Source of the DNA: a virus
IMG/VR virus record: IMGVR_UViG_3300004369_000650
Coordinates: 1-49,269 of that record
Reading direction: 5' to 3' (one strand)
Length of the DNA stretch: 49,269 bases
Position numbers and translations under genes: made by a program. Positions within the stretch are counted from its first letter, which is position 1; every line of letters starts with the position of its first letter. This document shows positions 7,363 to 14,377 of the stretch, in pieces. The notes below the pieces were generated by a model. The model was not told the origin of the DNA and searched no databases. It saw nothing but the letters and a program-made list of their open reading frames with translations.

Positions 7363-8049
7363 TTATTCGTCTCTATTACCCAATAAACTCAAAAGCATTT
7401 GGAATAGATTGATAAAGTTAAGGTACAAGCTCATTGATGTGCTGATAGCAAATTTAGCCAATTCATCGGTTGGAGAATTAGCACTTAAAAATGCAGTTTT
7501 TGCATTTTGGGTATCATAAGCAGTTAATCCTGTAAAGATAAGAACTCCGATGATACTTACTGTAAATTGTAGTGCAGAGCTTGCTAGGAAGATGTTTACT
7601 ACACTTGCAATAATAATACCGATTAGTCCAATCAGTAAGAAACTACCCCAACCGCTGATATCTTTCTTAGTGGTGTAACCGTAAATACTTGCTCCTGCAA
7701 ATGTTGCCGCAGTGATAAAAAACACCTGTGCAATACTTGCCGCAGTATAAATTGCAAATACTGTACTAAGGCTTACACCCATTAGTGCTGTGAATACATA
7801 ATAGAAGTTTCTTAAGAATTCAAAACTCCAATTTTTTCCAGCAAGACTATACCAAAAGATCATACCAAGTGGCGCCAGGATGAACAGCCATAAAGCCGAT
7901 CCCATTGCTGCCATTGCACCAGTAGCATATGTTAGGTAAGCAGTAACTCCGCTTAACCCAATACCAAGCGCAACATTATTATAAATTGCCAACATAAACT
8001 GACGCAGGTATTCGTCATATTGTGTGCGGACTTCAGTAATTGTACTCAT
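7363..8049 (-). CDS. Bax inhibitor-1 family membrane protein (YccA/TMBIM-like)
   Basis: 228 residues, about the usual length, with roughly seven hydrophobic segments. GASIYGYTTKKDISGWGSFLLIGLIG and TGLTAYDTQNAKTAF match the family's GYTTKrDLs...G.FLfmgLiGl and G.iAYDTQ.I signatures, including the conserved Asp of AYDTQ. Members form pH-sensitive Ca2+ leak channels or, in bacteria, interact with FtsH. It has its own consensus-type early promoter. A virus might use it to calm host membrane stress or proteolysis; that is an inference. It is unexpected in a phage and may have come from a host yccA/ybhL-type gene. Confidence 0.9.
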   Translation of the reverse strand: MSTITEVRTQYDEYLRQFMLAIYNNVALGIGLSGVTAYLTYATGAMAAMGSALWLFILAPLGMIFWYSLAGKNWSFEFLRNFYYVFTALMGVSLSTVFAIYTAASIAQVFFITAATFAGASIYGYTTKKDISGWGSFLLIGLIGIIIASVVNIFLASSALQFTVSIIGVLIFTGLTAYDTQNAKTAFLSANSPTDELAKFAISTSMSLYLNFINLFQMLLSLLGNRDE

Positions 8050-8115: not shown

Positions 8116-8610
8116 TTAACGATAAACTTGGTTCTGATTTTGCAAAGATCGTTCTTTTCCATCTTTATGCAACTGTTTTTGTTCGACAAATTTGTAAAGT
8201 TCGATGCGTAAACCTTCATCATTATCAGGTTTACGTGTTCCTCTGACTCCTTTAGCTCCTTTAGCTTCGGCGGCCTCTTCACTTTTTTGATGTAACTGTT
8301 TGTGGGTTTGCTTGTTATAAGGAATCTCGTAACTCATTGGGTATGGACGCCCTTCTTCCATAATCCACAACCAAATAACACCTTGGCTCTCATTTGCTTT
8401 CCATGCCAAAATATCAAACTCTACTGGCACCGTTTTTGATGTTGGTGAACCTAATATGGATTCATACGTATAGATTCCGCTAGTTACTACAGCAACCATT
8501 AAAGGTATAGCAATAAACAAACCTTGCATACGTATTTTAATCAACAAGATTGCGGCTGTTATAAAGAACAAAATAACCAAAGCATACAAAAAGTAGAGAT
8601 TATCAATCAT
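8116..8610 (-). CDS. membrane protein of the ExbB/ExbD-like operon, unknown
   Basis: 164 residues. Two N-terminal hydrophobic segments (about residues 5-25 and 30-48) are followed by a soluble part with VIWLWIMEEGRPYPMSYEIPY and a Lys/Glu/Gly-rich hinge (EEAAEAKGAKGVRGTRKP). The start forms an ATGA overlap with the exbD-like stop, so the product is probably made together with that complex. No family recognised; it may be the third component of the channel assembly. Confidence 0.75.
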   Translation of the reverse strand: MIDNLYFLYALVILFFITAAILLIKIRMQGLFIAIPLMVAVVTSGIYTYESILGSPTSKTVPVEFDILAWKANESQGVIWLWIMEEGRPYPMSYEIPYNKQTHKQLHQKSEEAAEAKGAKGVRGTRKPDNDEGLRIELYKFVEQKQLHKDGKERSLQNQNQVYR

Positions 8611-9266
8611 TTTGTTTTTCCATATGGGTTACTGGTACTGGGATTTCCAAATGCATTGTAGTTGTTATCGCCTTCGAGTGCGTTAACAAACTTCTTAGGT
8701 AAATTGTTTATTTCCCCAACGTCGCCTTCATTGTTTAAGATGCTGAATCTTAAAACAGTAGTTTCCTCGCCCATAGTAGTTAAGATTACTTCTTGTGCCC
8801 ATATCGTTTGGAATGGGTTAAGTCTAATTACAGAAACCTTAATAGGATCTAGATTATCTGGTTCAGACAGTCGATATAAATGCAAGTTAACAATGTATTC
8901 GCCTTGTTGCTTTCCTCTAAGGGTAACAACTTCTTGGTTAATTTGTACCAAAGATACATTACCATCTTTTGTGACAAATGAGTCTGTCAAACCTCCCATG
9001 TCGTCCATATCCAGGTGCATAATGCCCATTTGTTTAGAACGAAAACTAACAACTTTCTGATCTGGACTCTCTACCCATAAATCAATGTCTGACCGACTAG
9101 ACTTATTCCACTCTAATATTATTAAGTATTCGGCTTTTTGTACAATTTCTGCTTTTTTAGCCACTGGATTGATTAACAATAGAGTCAGAATAAACAGACT
9201 CAGGAATGTTAACAACAGAATAAACAAGAAGTCTGTAAACTCTAGTGCGTTGCGTTTAATCTTCAT
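8607..9266 (-). CDS. ExbD/TolR-like stator protein with a DUF2135-like beta domain
   Basis: 219 residues. One N-terminal transmembrane helix carries Asp12 in LEFTDFLFILLLTFLSLF, matching the proton-carrying Asp of ExbD/TolR/MotB. The outer part contains SDIDLWVESPDQKVVSF, LDMDDMGG and QQGEYIVNLHLYRL, the pattern of DUF2135/YfaP-like beta-sandwiches (DiDLhV.dP.G), not the usual ExbD periplasmic domain. It follows the ExbB-like gene with an overlap; the ATG at 9266 was preferred to a GTG three codons upstream. The expected complex is a pmf-driven inner-membrane motor whose outer domain binds an envelope target. The target is unknown. Confidence 0.75.
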   Translation of the reverse strand: MKIKRNALEFTDFLFILLLTFLSLFILTLLLINPVAKKAEIVQKAEYLIILEWNKSSRSDIDLWVESPDQKVVSFRSKQMGIMHLDMDDMGGLTDSFVTKDGNVSLVQINQEVVTLRGKQQGEYIVNLHLYRLSEPDNLDPIKVSVIRLNPFQTIWAQEVILTTMGEETTVLRFSILNNEGDVGEINNLPKKFVNALEGDNNYNAFGNPSTSNPYGKTK

Positions 9267-9714
9267 CGTCTTCACGCCCTAACAATACAAACTGAGTACG
9301 GAGGTGCAAACTAGTGACTAATCCAACTAAGGTAGTATTCAGAGCTGTAAATAAACCTGAAGTCAGAGCACCAAGTAAACGCTTTACTGCTTGAACGTCA
9401 TTGAGCTCGATATTTCCAAAAGTTCCCGACAGCATAATCATAAAACCAATAACAGTACCAACCATACCTAACGTAATAGCAATACTGGCAATATAAGTTT
9501 CGATTCTGTATATTGCGTTTGTGCTAAACTTATAGTATTTCCAACCAATGCTGATTGTACTAAATGCTAATAGTCCTGTTATCAATCCTGTGATGTATGT
9601 TTTATCTTGCGTGTATATAGGATTTAGGATGTCGAAATCCCAGAGTATATACAGACATCCAACCGTTAAGCAGTTAAATAACCACCAATATAAAAAATTT
9701 CGTTTCACTTCCAC
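9256..9714 (-). CDS. ExbB/TolQ/MotA-type proton channel subunit
   Basis: 152 residues, shorter than ExbB or TolQ (about 230-245). Four hydrophobic segments are visible. The last two carry the family core: ITLGMVGTVIGFMIMLSG, then LLGALTSGLFTALNTTLVGL, matching LLGLlGTVxG and GIxxALxTTxxGL of ExbB/TolQ. The start is a GTG (9714), with another GTG two codons later; no ATG is available and AAAGG precedes it. It overlaps the ExbD-like gene, so the pair should form one complex. Confidence 0.8.
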   Translation of the reverse strand: MEVKRNFLYWWLFNCLTVGCLYILWDFDILNPIYTQDKTYITGLITGLLAFSTISIGWKYYKFSTNAIYRIETYIASIAITLGMVGTVIGFMIMLSGTFGNIELNDVQAVKRLLGALTSGLFTALNTTLVGLVTSLHLRTQFVLLGREDDED

Positions 9715-9756: not shown

Positions 9757-9963
9757 CTACTCATTTAGTTCTTTTTGTAAGCGAGAAATTTCATCTTTAA
9801 GATGCAGTTTCTTAAGTTTTAGAGCTCCAATACGTTCAGCATCACATGTTACATGTGATTGCATCTGGTCTACTGTATTATTTAACAAAGAATGGGTTCT
9901 TTCCAGACTTTCTAGTTTAGTTCTTAACTTTTCCTTAGGAATACTTTTTTTAATACCGGACAT
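9757..9963 (-). CDS. DUF465-like coiled-coil protein
   Basis: 68 residues, mostly helical. The C-terminal RIGALKLKKLHLKDEISRL matches the DUF465/YdcH signature (LKk.KL.lKDeI). The first half has heptad-like Leu spacing. The ATG overlaps the stop of the transglycosylase gene (TAATG). Function of the family is unknown; small size and coiled coil suggest an adaptor. Confidence 0.7.
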   Translation of the reverse strand: MSGIKKSIPKEKLRTKLESLERTHSLLNNTVDQMQSHVTCDAERIGALKLKKLHLKDEISRLQKELNE

Positions 9964-11432
9964 TAAGCCTCCTCTGTAAACAATGCGTTAAACATTGTAT
10001 TTGCGTTTTTAGCTTTCTTTCCTGTGTACCCGCGAGTTCCCTGGATATCCATCCAATAATTGTCGTATTTGTCAATCAACTTCATACTCGCATCTTTGGT
10101 TGGTGCTGAAAAGATATCGTTGACAATATCTCTAAAGTATGCATAGTCGCCTCGTTGGTTCCACATCATTGCCGGATGTTCACCAGCATCATAGCGTCTG
10201 TTTGCTTCTTGAACTGCTGTCAAGTGCATCCATACGTTATGATTCATTAGCAGGCAATAGCTGAAGCTATCCCATGATGTTTTGCCTTCTTTGCCTATCT
10301 TGTTAACGTCTCCAGGACCATAAACACAGATGTCACCAAGTTTTAGGTCTTTACTAATAGGAGAGTCTTCCCAGTTATCATATGCGCCTTCTTGTATAAC
10401 AGCATCACGAATCCAACGTGTATCTCGTGCTAGATTCTTGTTGTCAACAAACGAGCCCATGATGTAACTCCATTTGCCGTTGTGCGGGAATCTATTTTCT
10501 CTGTAGACTTGACCGTTAGCAGTTCCAAGGAATGGACTAGCACAGTCAAAGCTGATTTGGAAGTTTTCATTGTAGTTGCGTTGCACTGCACGTTGAATGT
10601 CTGTTAGCAGTAGTGCCCATTCAAGTTTGCTAGTGCCCAAAAAGTGCATCCAGTCATGTAAGCCTGGAAGTAGTAGCCCGTCATAGTGAAGTGAGACAAT
10701 GCGCTTGAGAATCAAGTGAACGTCACACATATTCTGTCCACCCATTGCCCATCCATTAAAATGATTGTCGGGGTACTTGTTTGGATCGCAGTAGTCTTTC
10801 ATCTGCTGATACCAATCTTCTGCGTCTGTGTGATTCTCACCTTGTAGAACGTTTAAGAATTTACACGCACCAGTACGATTGTTGATAAAGTAATCGTTGT
10901 TAACACGAGTTGCGTTAACTGCTTCTTGATATGTGCTAATACCTGTTGCTTTTGCGCCTTCTGGACTACGGGCTACCCATGCTGGAATATCCAACACCAT
11001 ACCATAGTCCATGAGAGAGTCCATCCATTCCAATACTTGTTTACGTTTTTTAGATGCGTGTGGGCAGTTAGGATCTTTCCAATCTCCAGGCCATTTACCT
11101 TTACCAATTTGGAAGCCGCCTGAATCACCTAGTACCCAACTATTTCCATCTTTTACACGTTTACGAAATACTTCTTCTCTGTCGTCTTGCTTGTTAAGGT
11201 CTAGGTTAGCGTGTCCTGCACTGTACAAACACCATTTGTAGTAGAACAAAGGATTGTTAGGATCTAAGAAGTTTAGACTTTCTACATCATTGGTAAGGTG
11301 TGCAGGAATACGGGCAGGGTCGATGTATGGATAGCGCATCCGCTGATACCCGATAAAACTAGAGTAAAAGCTAGATGTAGCAGGCAAAAACATTGCATAG
11401 TCTTTGCGCTGTTTGTTTGTTAAGTTATCCAT
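9963..11432 (-). CDS. dpdA: DpdA/TGT-like transglycosylase, candidate 7-deazaguanine DNA insertase
   Basis: 489 residues. VLGDSGGFQIGKGKWPGD contains the DSGGFQ motif of tRNA-guanine transglycosylases, whose first Asp is catalytic; FQISFDCASP matches the FDC(V)LP nucleophile region; and a G/H-rich PGLHDWMHFLG follows. The CxCxxC...H zinc site of bacterial tRNA enzymes is absent, as in phage/DNA-specific DpdA proteins. The expected reaction is exchange of guanine in DNA for a 7-deazaguanine made by the FolE-QueD-QueE branch, protecting phage DNA from host nucleases. It lies directly downstream of the sliding clamp gene, so it is co-expressed with replication. The DNA-versus-tRNA assignment is inferred from family and context. 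Confidence 0.85.
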   Translation of the reverse strand: MDNLTNKQRKDYAMFLPATSSFYSSFIGYQRMRYPYIDPARIPAHLTNDVESLNFLDPNNPLFYYKWCLYSAGHANLDLNKQDDREEVFRKRVKDGNSWVLGDSGGFQIGKGKWPGDWKDPNCPHASKKRKQVLEWMDSLMDYGMVLDIPAWVARSPEGAKATGISTYQEAVNATRVNNDYFINNRTGACKFLNVLQGENHTDAEDWYQQMKDYCDPNKYPDNHFNGWAMGGQNMCDVHLILKRIVSLHYDGLLLPGLHDWMHFLGTSKLEWALLLTDIQRAVQRNYNENFQISFDCASPFLGTANGQVYRENRFPHNGKWSYIMGSFVDNKNLARDTRWIRDAVIQEGAYDNWEDSPISKDLKLGDICVYGPGDVNKIGKEGKTSWDSFSYCLLMNHNVWMHLTAVQEANRRYDAGEHPAMMWNQRGDYAYFRDIVNDIFSAPTKDASMKLIDKYDNYWMDIQGTRGYTGKKAKNANTMFNALFTEEA

Positions 11433-11434
11433 TT

Positions 11435-12157
11435 TTACTTTGTTTGCGCTGGTAAAATGTAGTTGTATTCAATAAGACCGCTATCTACAGTAATCATACC
11501 TGCGCCGTCATCGCTGATCTTAAATGTTTTATCTCCTGGTAGGCTTAAAATTGCATTAACATAGGCAACAGGATAACTCCATGAATTTTTAAGTTTTCCG
11601 CTTACGCCTTGTTCAAACACAAACTCGCCACTGTGACTGCTAGGGTCGCCAAAGTAGACCATTAGTTTATTATCCTCGACACGCACACTGAACGTGGCTT
11701 CATCTGGGTGTGCTTGACTCATAAACTTCAAACGCTGAATACTTGTAACTGTGGGAACAATATCAACGTTCCAGGTAACGTTTGCAAACTTAAAGTTCTT
11801 AACAATAGTGTTAACAACATTCTCGCCCATAAAGCGATAGTCATTTTGGAAATCACCTTCTTTGTTTTCTAAGTGCAAACTAGTAGCAACACCGTTATCT
11901 TGTTGTACACTAATCTTTGCATCTTCTTTATAAACAGGAAGATTAAGTAGGGTATTGAGTCTGCCTAGGTTAGGCATACCAAATGTACCCATAAAGTCTG
12001 CAACTACATTCTTAAAGTTTGCTTCAATGACCACACTGGACCGGTCTTCACTGATGCTGTTTAACTTCATTGAATCCTTGGTGCCAGTAACTTTGGCAAT
12101 ATCAATTCCGCCCAAGCCATAGGTGTGCTGGACAATGTCTAATAGATAGTCTTTCAT
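11435..12157 (-). CDS. 45: DNA polymerase sliding clamp (gp45-like)
   Basis: 240 residues, close to T4 gp45 (228) and marine T4-like clamps. I recognise the overall pattern: VVIEANFKNVVADFMGTFGMPNL, LNTLLNLPVYKEDAKI, TVTSIQRLKFMSQAH and SWSYPVAYVNAILSL, ending with IEYNYILPAQTK. It forms a trimeric ring on DNA that tethers the polymerase and, in T4, also activates late transcription. A separate strong promoter lies 31-59 bases upstream. The dpdA-like gene starts 2 bases after it. Confidence 0.9.
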   Translation of the reverse strand: MKDYLLDIVQHTYGLGGIDIAKVTGTKDSMKLNSISEDRSSVVIEANFKNVVADFMGTFGMPNLGRLNTLLNLPVYKEDAKISVQQDNGVATSLHLENKEGDFQNDYRFMGENVVNTIVKNFKFANVTWNVDIVPTVTSIQRLKFMSQAHPDEATFSVRVEDNKLMVYFGDPSSHSGEFVFEQGVSGKLKNSWSYPVAYVNAILSLPGDKTFKISDDGAGMITVDSGLIEYNYILPAQTK

Positions 12158-12187: not shown

Positions 12188-12216
12188 AATATAACATACG
12201 TTATTTAGGCTGTCAA
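12188..12216 (-). promoter_or_regulatory. sigma70-type promoter for the clamp-dpdA-exb operon
   Basis: Minus strand TTGACA (12216-12211), 17 bp spacer beginning GCCTAAATAA, TATATT (12193-12188). The -35 lies in the end of the methyltransferase gene. AAAGGA precedes the clamp ATG. Confidence 0.85.
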
Positions 12217-13185
12217 ACTTTTTGGAGAACTTTTTATAGTTTTAATCTCCGCTAATGCTTGGTGTGCTTTGATAGTTTTTAGTTCGCCAGGCTTCTTGAT
12301 TTCAAGCCAACTCAAAGTGTTGTAGTCAAAGTCAGCAACTATATCGAATCCTAAGCTGGTAGCCAATGGAATTAAAAGACTCTTAGGCATGTAACTCATA
12401 AAGTAGTTTTCAGCATAAGAAGCCGCTGGACCTAGATCAGCGTTATTATATGTAAACATCATAACTCCGCCTGGGCGTAGCAGTTTAAAGATTTCAGATA
12501 GGTAGTCTTTGAATCCTTGGATGCTACGATAGTTAAAGTAATTGAAGCTGAATACGAAACCAAACTGTTCTTGTGGTAACATACTAAAATCAATTTGCAC
12601 TGTGTCGGTTGAGTTTACCGCAAAGTCGTGTATTAAATAAGAACGAATACGGTTTCTATACTGATCGTCAAATTGATTCATAGTGTTATCTATGAACTCT
12701 TGATAGTTGTCAGTGATGTATAGCGGATCACCTGCTACAAGATATTTGGTCATTTCGCCATCTCTACAGCCAAACTCGAGTACAGGATATCGCCAGTCTA
12801 CATAACGTCCAATACGGCTTAGGAAAGGTTGGAATGCTTCCTTAGGCACGTACAGTTGGCGAACTTCTCGAATACTTTGTGCTGTATCGTAAGCAAGTTC
12901 TAAGTCATAGTTCTGTGCATAGAATTTCCTACTTAGATGACCAATATCTTCGTCGATTTTATTGTTTCTGTCAGCAAGTGTTTGCTCAATTCTTGTTAAT
13001 TCATCTATTACTGCTTTTAAGTTGTCAATAGTTTTTTGCAAATACTCATTGTGTTCACCCGTGACATTCACATCGCGAATTGAAAGTATGGTGTTACAGA
13101 GTCCGTCGATATGCGTTTGTATACCGGCGACTTTAAGACTGTTGTTTAACCTGTTTTTAAAATTGACCAACTCACTCAGTTTCAT
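12205..13185 (-). CDS. SAM-dependent methyltransferase with N-terminal coiled coil
   Basis: 326 residues. Residues ~1-110 are helical with repeated hydrophobic spacing (coiled coil). The C-terminal domain has motif I VLEFGCRDGEMTKYL and the late-strand motif FKLLRPGGVMMFTYNN, both typical of class I methyltransferases; FGFVFSFNYFNY lies where motif IV is expected. Start 13185 has AAGGA six bases upstream; a GTG just before it is the alternative. It sits between the radical SAM gene and the clamp. The substrate (protein, small molecule or nucleic acid) cannot be told. Confidence 0.75.
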   Translation of the reverse strand: MKLSELVNFKNRLNNSLKVAGIQTHIDGLCNTILSIRDVNVTGEHNEYLQKTIDNLKAVIDELTRIEQTLADRNNKIDEDIGHLSRKFYAQNYDLELAYDTAQSIREVRQLYVPKEAFQPFLSRIGRYVDWRYPVLEFGCRDGEMTKYLVAGDPLYITDNYQEFIDNTMNQFDDQYRNRIRSYLIHDFAVNSTDTVQIDFSMLPQEQFGFVFSFNYFNYRSIQGFKDYLSEIFKLLRPGGVMMFTYNNADLGPAASYAENYFMSYMPKSLLIPLATSLGFDIVADFDYNTLSWLEIKKPGELKTIKAHQALAEIKTIKSSPKSLTA

Positions 13186-13216
13186 CACTGATCCTTATCG
13201 ATATATTAACTACTAC

Positions 13217-13243: not shown

Positions 13244-14377
13244 TCAATTTTTTAAGTGGCTAAGGTTATGTAACTCTACTTTCATCTCTCCGTTGACTAT
13301 TTCTGGCGAATTAATTATTTCTACTAGTTCCCCAAAGTTTGGATGATTGGGTAACCAAACTGCATGGTCGCTAAAAGTATTAGTTCCGCCTATTGTAAAA
13401 GTACCCCAATCAGTGATCTTTTGCAACTCGATTACATCTACACCTAGTTGATTACCTATGCGTACAAATTTGATGATATCTTTATAGTTAGATTTCTGTA
13501 CTACAAAGTTTAAGATAACATTCATATTGGGGTTGAATTCATTTTTCCAATCTACGATGTATTTTGTACTTTCTAGTAACTTGTTCCAACTGCCTCCCCT
13601 TCTAGTAATATTATACACTTCAGGGGAGCCTGCGTCAAAACTAATTTTAAATCGTCGAACAAAATTATGAATGCCTGTTAAATTTTTCCAATGATCTTTA
13701 ACTAGTATGCCATTGGTAACAATTTCTATAACTCGATCATGTAGGACATCCGGATCGATTTTTCCAAGTAATTGCCTATAGATATGACTAGCAAACGGAT
13801 CGCCATCTCCGCTTACAGTGAATTGCAACTCATGTTGATGATTGTTGATCAATTTAGCAATATGCTCTGACATACGCATACGTAGGTCAAAACTTTCGCC
13901 TTCTTTGTGAAAAATAAGTTCTGTTCGGCAGCTAGGACAACGAAGATTACAACTATTATCTATAGCAAAAATGATTCTAGTAACAGTGTCGGGCGTGTTC
14001 AAATTATCTCGAAGTTCGTTGTTTGCAATAATATGACAAGTTCGTTCGTCGCAGTATCTGTAACTCCCGTCAACGATTGATGCTTGAATTTCTTGTGCTT
14101 TAGGACTTTTAACAATGTCATCTAAACTATTAAAGTCCATGATGTTGCCAACAGGTATCGGTAACCATGCTTGACATATGCAAACAAAACATTCTCCGTA
14201 GCGGTCAATAGTAACATCATTAAATGGACTATGACAGTACTTTCCTTTTAGACCTAAGTCTTTTTGAAAGTTCATGCCAATAGAATCATAACGAAACTTG
14301 CTATCTCTACCCAAGTCGTCAACTGTTAGAGGTATACGTTCTAATGTTTTATAACTTTGGATATCTACATTAGTCAC
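13244..14377 (-). CDS. radical SAM protein with N-terminal SPASM-like cysteine cluster
   Basis: 377 residues. FAIDNSCNLRCPSCRTELIF holds the CxxxCxxC 4Fe-4S/SAM motif, followed by a glycine-rich FTVSGDGDPFAS and FKISFDAGSPEVY, as in peptide- or substrate-modifying radical SAM enzymes. Before the core, YCHSPFNDVTIDRYGECFVC and YCDERTCH form a Cys-rich block resembling a SPASM auxiliary cluster, which normally lies after the core. The GTG start follows the polymerase stop immediately, with GGAAG at a good distance. It probably shares the dsbA-polymerase transcript. The substrate is unknown; it is not QueE-like. Confidence 0.8.
   Translation of the reverse strand: MTNVDIQSYKTLERIPLTVDDLGRDSKFRYDSIGMNFQKDLGLKGKYCHSPFNDVTIDRYGECFVCICQAWLPIPVGNIMDFNSLDDIVKSPKAQEIQASIVDGSYRYCDERTCHIIANNELRDNLNTPDTVTRIIFAIDNSCNLRCPSCRTELIFHKEGESFDLRMRMSEHIAKLINNHQHELQFTVSGDGDPFASHIYRQLLGKIDPDVLHDRVIEIVTNGILVKDHWKNLTGIHNFVRRFKISFDAGSPEVYNITRRGGSWNKLLESTKYIVDWKNEFNPNMNVILNFVVQKSNYKDIIKFVRIGNQLGVDVIELQKITDWGTFTIGGTNTFSDHAVWLPNHPNFGELVEIINSPEIVNGEMKVELHNLSHLKN

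Follow-up and report, generated by a model that had tools for sequence, protein, structure and literature searches.

To our knowledge, the 5:2 ion motors described so far are all cellular and serve flagella, the Ton and Tol systems, gliding, secretion, or Zorya. What might a phage do with one? The question is raised by three small membrane-protein genes in the IMG/VR virus record IMGVR_UViG_3300004369_000650, which was analyzed over a stretch of 49,269 nucleotides (hereafter, the window). A sequence-only reading, made without database searches, had described them as an ExbB/ExbD-like motor with a DUF2135-like outer domain and a third membrane protein, and had suggested that the complex might block superinfection, remodel the envelope, or act in a defence-like fashion as ZorAB does. 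We call the genes B, D, and T; together they look like a small proton-driven membrane motor encoded in a phage.

The B-D-T Operon

The three ORFs were found where they had been placed, on the minus strand at 8116-9714, and they overlap to form an operon read in the order B, D, T (Table 1). The overlaps, which are 20 bases long between B and D and 4 bases long between D and T, resemble those of a translationally coupled operon. A gene for a small DUF465 protein (9757-9963, E 1e-11) lies immediately upstream of B, and a full-length Bax inhibitor-1 family protein (7363-8049; PF01027, E 3e-52) is encoded after T on the same strand. No relatives of the latter were detected by blastp near other B-D-T loci, so this neighbor seems to be specific to the window. 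The other neighbors here are phage genes without known function. Two names given earlier to nearby genes were not borne out: the "DpdA-like" gene (9963-11432) retrieved no match in Pfam or PHROG, and the "clamp" gene (11435-12157) matches phrog_12062, whose function is unknown. Genes for a radical SAM/SPASM protein and a methyltransferase (13244-14377 and 12205-13188) adjoin a DNA polymerase gene. The cassette is positioned near replication genes in the window, it is amid replication genes in the rhizobial phage AF3, and recognized lysis genes are not adjacent to it.

Table 1. Positions in the window of the B-D-T genes and of the residues and domains discussed in the text.
Feature	Position	Strand	Description
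B	9256..9714	-	152 aa, GTG start, about four TM helices; short MotA/TolQ/ExbB-family subunit
B Thr87	9454..9456	-	GxxGT motif, preceding pore helix
B Thr128	9331..9333	-	Last helix; predicted to face the pore, by homology
D	8607..9275	-	222 aa, GTG start, in-frame ATG at 9266; ExbD/MotB-like with TerD/DUF2135-like periplasmic domain
D transmembrane helix, residues 8-35	9171..9254	-	Single helix in the model
D Asp15	9231-9233	-	Near the cytoplasmic end of the D helix
D periplasmic beta-sandwich, residues 46-200	8676..9140	-	From model and conservation; DxDLWVxSP-type motif
T	8116..8610	-	Third subunit of 164 aa with two TM helices; its start overlaps the stop of D
T C-terminal predicted periplasmic domain, residues 60-143	8182..8433	-	Weakly OB-like

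B and D as an Ion-Motor Pair

The assignment of B and D to an ExbB/ExbD-type pair held up. B passes the Pfam MotA_ExbB model (PF01618) with an E-value of 2.3e-7 and 31.0 bits against a cut-off of 22.9, and it scored 33.2 bits for the same family in a search of the whole record. A profile of the B family retrieved TolQ, MotA, and PomA chains from the PDB (E 0.003-0.06), with an alignment that spans the two pore helices. D has a single helix with a conserved Asp, followed, as had been described, by a beta-domain carrying the DxDLWVxSP-type motif. Conservation of the Asp and of the pore Thr positions among relatives had been chosen beforehand as one check on the motor assignment, and it was found in nearly all proteins: Thr128 is invariant in 90/90 diverse B proteins, Thr87 is Thr in 87/90, and position 15 of D is Asp in all 51 viral rows and in 38/40 bacterial ones. 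The exceptions are the sister bacterial genomes L164 and L167, both of which also carry two T copies; their Ala is, as the alignment reads, a natural loss of the putative motor residue.

B proteins of viruses are small. The window's B extends only 24 residues beyond Thr128, and the median length is 162 aa in viruses versus 242 aa in bacteria, while a rough motif search put the conserved Asp37 55 residues from the GxxGT helix in viral proteins versus 88 in bacterial ones. Both differences suggest that viral B has less cytoplasmic sequence.

For D, the predicted structure (pLDDT 84.7) and a profile of relatives built from 50 sequences were used. No ExbD match was found in Pfam for the window's D, nor was ExbD among the families matched by the 50 D proteins. 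The closest PDB folds to the periplasmic domain were those of TerD proteins (3ibz, Z 11.6 over 142 residues with an rmsd of 4.6 A; 2qng, Z 9.9 over 132 residues; 2qz7, Z 9.3; rmsd range 3.5-4.6 A), and the next, unrelated folds scored about 6. Foldseek searches of the PDB with the whole D and whole T models returned nothing below E 1e-3, and hhalign of D against six TerD proteins gave nothing significant (E 0.28 over 12 columns). The link to TerD is therefore one of predicted fold, which by itself would say nothing about function. The earlier description of the domain as DUF2135-like finds support in a weak sequence similarity, since hhalign of the D profile against one DUF2135 domain gave an E-value of 3.8e-5, though the Pfam DUF2135 model (PF09906) stayed below its cut-off (best 15.6 bits versus 22, E 0.02) and TerD is the nearest predicted fold. 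Ten residues (W56, D63, D65, L88, D91, D92, G94, E115, R120, and E171) are identical in 91/91 D proteins, and the acidic ones among them, D63, D65, D91, D92, and E115, are compatible with putative calcium binding.

T and Its Fusion to Lysozyme

The third membrane protein was likewise recognized as coupled to the pair. Two transmembrane helices are present in 87/91 T proteins, and K/R residues average 2.1 in the loop between them versus 0.3 at the N-terminus, a positive-inside pattern from which both termini of T are predicted to lie outside. Model confidence for the C-terminal domain is about 90 (pLDDT) at residues 60-110 and drops to 70-77 beyond; against PDB folds its top Z was only 6.3, within background, so that no decisive match was obtained. 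A search of the viral library with T gave three significant matches, all T-sized, the single named one being from a Rhizobium phage. The first 60 residues of T contain no conserved His (among 91 rows, 15 or more His occur in no column), and T thus lacks the SHLS motor-binding motif of TolA/TonB, as defined in PMC12204202.

At 13 viral loci (L006, L007, L008, L014, L016, L031, L035, L036, L041, L049, L055, L063, and L066), T is fused in frame to a complete phage lysozyme (PF00959, best E 8.5e-53), which follows the predicted periplasmic domain of T. All of these fusions fall within one clade and are probably the product of one event. Internal ATG or GTG codons occur in the T-lysozyme genes, preceded in several loci by a Shine-Dalgarno-like GGAG, and would possibly yield free lysozyme alongside the tethered form. 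An apparent second T in L058 proved to be a free lysozyme and was dropped; the T profile had taken in the fusion's lysozyme during iteration.

Distribution in Phages

With D as the tblastn query, 27 of 50,697 phage records matched, every one of them a Rhizobium or Sinorhizobium phage. The carriers belong to unrelated groups and include T4-like Pootjesviridae (AF3, P10VF, RL38J1), RHph_I1_18, 68-kb pol I phages (RHph_N3_13), and the temperate phage 16-3; the gene neighborhoods around the cassette are very different, and the four rhizobial phages examined in full all have B, D, and T in order. A scan with the window's D as a single protein found no viral relatives, and an alignment was needed as the query, with which IMG/VR yielded 217 relatives, 80 of whose loci were examined. 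B-D-T is found in hundreds of viral contigs, and many marine phages carry it.

The order B-D-T was kept in 85/85 viral loci. D and T were always present, and B was missing solely from L006 and L038, whose contigs start inside D. Gaps of at most 60 bases separate 79/83 B-D pairs and 78/85 D-T pairs. An extra ORF separates B and D in L008 (1650-2081), 0.9 kb separates D and T in L053 (4424-5339), and in RHph_X2_25 an HNH endonuclease gene (L178, 4529-5071) follows D, with a 142-residue ORF then occupying the T position. Among the 135 phage genes neighboring B-D-T, ClpP (6), ClpS (4), and HSP20 (3) lend a proteostasis flavor, and Na/Pi transporter and SbmA/BacA genes lie near some phage copies.

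Copies in Bacterial Genomes

The module had been presented as a phage peculiarity, a view that did not survive a survey of cellular genomes (a GTDB scan plus genome samples). The cassette is present in 49/337 genomes of the Alphaproteobacteria, sampled as the class of a Pelagibacteraceae MAG, and in 28/229 of the Gammaproteobacteria, the class of a Legionellales MAG, which amounts to roughly one sampled proteobacterial genome in eight. By comparison, 1/148 genomes in the phylum of a Desulfobacterales MAG and 1/332 in that of a Harrisonbacteria MAG were positive, in each case the seed genome itself. The candidate phylum bacteria L097 and L098, which we take to lack an outer membrane, also carry B-D-T.

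B-D-T order was kept in 52/52 loci from cellular genomes, a count that includes three loci (L089, L093, and L095) that look like phage contigs. These and L086 are MAG contigs that resemble phage by their neighbors, and they were excluded as proof of bacterial copies; taken as chromosomal were L087, L090, and L092, L094 (on a 7-Mb contig), L096, and the large contigs of the two class samples. In the alphaproteobacterial MAGs L087, L090, and L092 the cassette adjoins sufB, and in L096 it adjoins an EF-P-like gene. The constant order in viruses and bacteria argues for a real module, beyond what chance would give.

A tree of 91 D proteins requires at least five changes between viruses and bacteria, so the module moves between phages and cells, in one direction or both. 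The D of 16-3 clusters, on a long branch, with a separate set from the alphaproteobacterial class.

Neighbors Related to the Cell Wall

At about 7/20 gammaproteobacterial loci, the genes for a YkuD L,D-transpeptidase and a DUF302 protein precede B, D, and T on the same strand, often with a VWA-FHA gene after them. A DUF3108-like lipoprotein gene lies close downstream of T in nine loci from both classes, on the same strand in eight. Together with the T-lysozyme fusion, these bacterial partners shift the likeliest target of the complex toward peptidoglycan or the periplasm. Further associations occur in phages: in L015, which sits elsewhere in the tree from the fusion clade, a lysozyme is encoded by an ORF of its own, two genes past T; an M15 peptidase gene lies directly upstream of the cassette in L089, which is probably a phage contig; and a trypsin-like peptidase gene is close to B-D-T in some rhizobial phages. 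Phage neighbors of the cassette (ClpP, ClpS, HSP20) are nevertheless mostly unrelated to the cell wall, and RHph_N3_13 has a separate lysozyme gene 17 kb away on the opposite strand.

Comparison with Known Systems

B-D-T shares with ExbBD, TolQR, and MotAB (PF01618) homologous pore helices in B with a conserved pore Thr, one D helix with a conserved Asp, and adjacent B and D genes. It differs in that the periplasmic part of D is a TerD/DUF2135-type beta-sandwich where the known motors have an ExbD/TolR or OmpA-like domain, in that an obligate T with two transmembrane helices and no SHLS motif is present, and in the very short B of viruses. With TerD and DUF2135 domains, D has in common the beta-sandwich fold and an Asp-rich conserved loop, but its domain is anchored in the membrane through an ion-motor helix and is predicted to be periplasmic.

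VWA proteins have been described as themselves the transducer, or as a dimeric partner, in TolQ-like motor pairs (PMC12204202). Those systems resemble B-D-T in pairing motor genes with a novel type of periplasmic output module, and a VWA protein is also present in some bacterial B-D-T operons; B-D-T differs by its separate ExbD-like D, constant T, and optional VWA. Literature searches on phage-encoded ExbB/ExbD, on DUF2135, and on TerD with membrane or VWA found no description of B-D-T, and in the section consulted of a survey of GIT motors (PMC12505986), assorted DUF appendages are mentioned and B-D-T is not among them.

Zorya ZorAB has a similar MotA-type membrane core, and a setting of biological conflict is possible for both. 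The similarity of B to ZorA models was weak (PADLOC E 3e-6; NCBIfam 15.8 bits against a cut-off of 500) and confined to the shared membrane core. PADLOC returned no match for D, T, or the tested bacterial neighbors, and D matched no peptidoglycan-binding domain in Pfam or PADLOC. B is without the long cytoplasmic ZorA tail, and Zorya needs both that tail and the peptidoglycan domain (PMC11890865). The Zorya partner genes had been noted as missing, and indeed no ZorC, ZorD, or ZorE gene lies beside the cassette in the window or among the tested bacterial neighbors. Identity with Zorya was rejected on the absence of the tail, of ZorC/D/E, and of a PADLOC match for D, and the defence-like role suggested earlier gained nothing beyond the weak ZorA similarity of B.

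Possible Functions of the Complex

We tentatively favor, at somewhat less than an even chance, the reading that B-D-T is a pmf-powered machine of the cell wall or periplasm, by which an infecting phage would control or reshape the wall of its host. B, D, and T would assemble in the inner membrane into a single ion-driven complex of the 5:2 kind. B would make up the ring, and D a dimer at its center with the proton-binding Asp on the D helix; by homology, protons would flow past Thr87 and Thr128 of B and Asp15 of D and move D relative to B. T would sit beside B and D in the membrane with a periplasmic domain of its own, and output would pass through it and through the beta-sandwich of D. As target, the peptidoglycan layer or an enzyme of the cell wall would be most likely; in some phages T itself carries such an enzyme, the lysozyme, and in the gammaproteobacterial operon the partners would be the L,D-transpeptidase and the envelope proteins.

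This wall-machine reading draws on the family membership of B, the conserved Asp and Thr residues, the obligate gene order, the predicted fold of D and its DUF2135 similarity, and also on the T-lysozyme fusion, the lysozyme near T in L015, the transpeptidase operon, and the predicted outside position of the C-terminus of T. It is weakened by the restriction of the fusion to a single clade, with free lysozyme as a possible product, by the distant lysozyme of RHph_N3_13, by the replication-gene setting and the non-wall phage neighbors, by the two Ala-bearing D proteins, and by the lack of a sequence link between D and TerD. In the bolder form, which we regard as quite unlikely, a rotary-type proton-driven phage motor that has its own dedicated third subunit would power or gate a wall enzyme tethered to the membrane, and so couple the host's pmf directly to wall cutting during infection.

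Superinfection exclusion or envelope protection is an unlikely explanation that still deserves serious weight. A complex made in early or mid-infection would stiffen or sense the periplasm and stop DNA entry by a second phage, for which the envelope is the right place; the replication and sigma-factor genes nearby in AF3 and the polymerase gene near the cassette in the window suggest early or middle expression, and the carriers are very different phages, one of them temperate. Chromosomal homologues are, however, widespread and accompanied by cell-wall partners, and a fused lysozyme would make little sense.

The fusion also speaks for a role in lysis timing, in which the motor would use pmf to restrain or drive a membrane-tethered muralytic enzyme until a fall in pmf triggers lysis, and the lysozyme near T in L015 and the adjoining M15 peptidase in L089 point the same way. 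We consider this decidedly unlikely, given that most loci have no lysozyme inside the B-D-T operon, that the bacterial homologues are stable chromosomal genes, and that RHph_N3_13 has a separate endolysin; the position of the cassette amid or near replication genes in AF3 and the window also speaks against a simple lysis gene.

An auxiliary Ton/Tol-like module, energizing the envelope to sustain nutrient uptake or outer-membrane integrity in the infected cell, appears improbable: it accords with the likeness of B to TolQ/MotA, the conserved lipoproteins downstream in bacteria, and the Na/Pi transporter and SbmA/BacA genes that neighbor the cassette in some phages, but not with T helices that lack a conserved His and hence SHLS, nor with the carriage of the module by L097 and L098, presumably without an outer membrane. 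A Zorya-like conflict system, or a decoy disarming the host's Zorya, is very improbable, since its support, the weak match of B to ZorA models, is limited to the shared core and far below the NCBIfam cut-off, and the ZorA tail, ZorC/D/E, and a PADLOC match for D are all missing.

The motor core of B-D-T belongs to a known superfamily. Unreported in the literature searched is its combination of a TerD/DUF2135-type output domain, an obligate two-helix T, and carriage by phages. Many phages retain this compact ion motor as an intact three-gene unit, which is also common, and uncharacterized, in proteobacteria. As isolated rhizobial phages (16-3, AF3, P10VF, RL38J1, and the RHph series) carry B-D-T, its role is open to gene-deletion tests.
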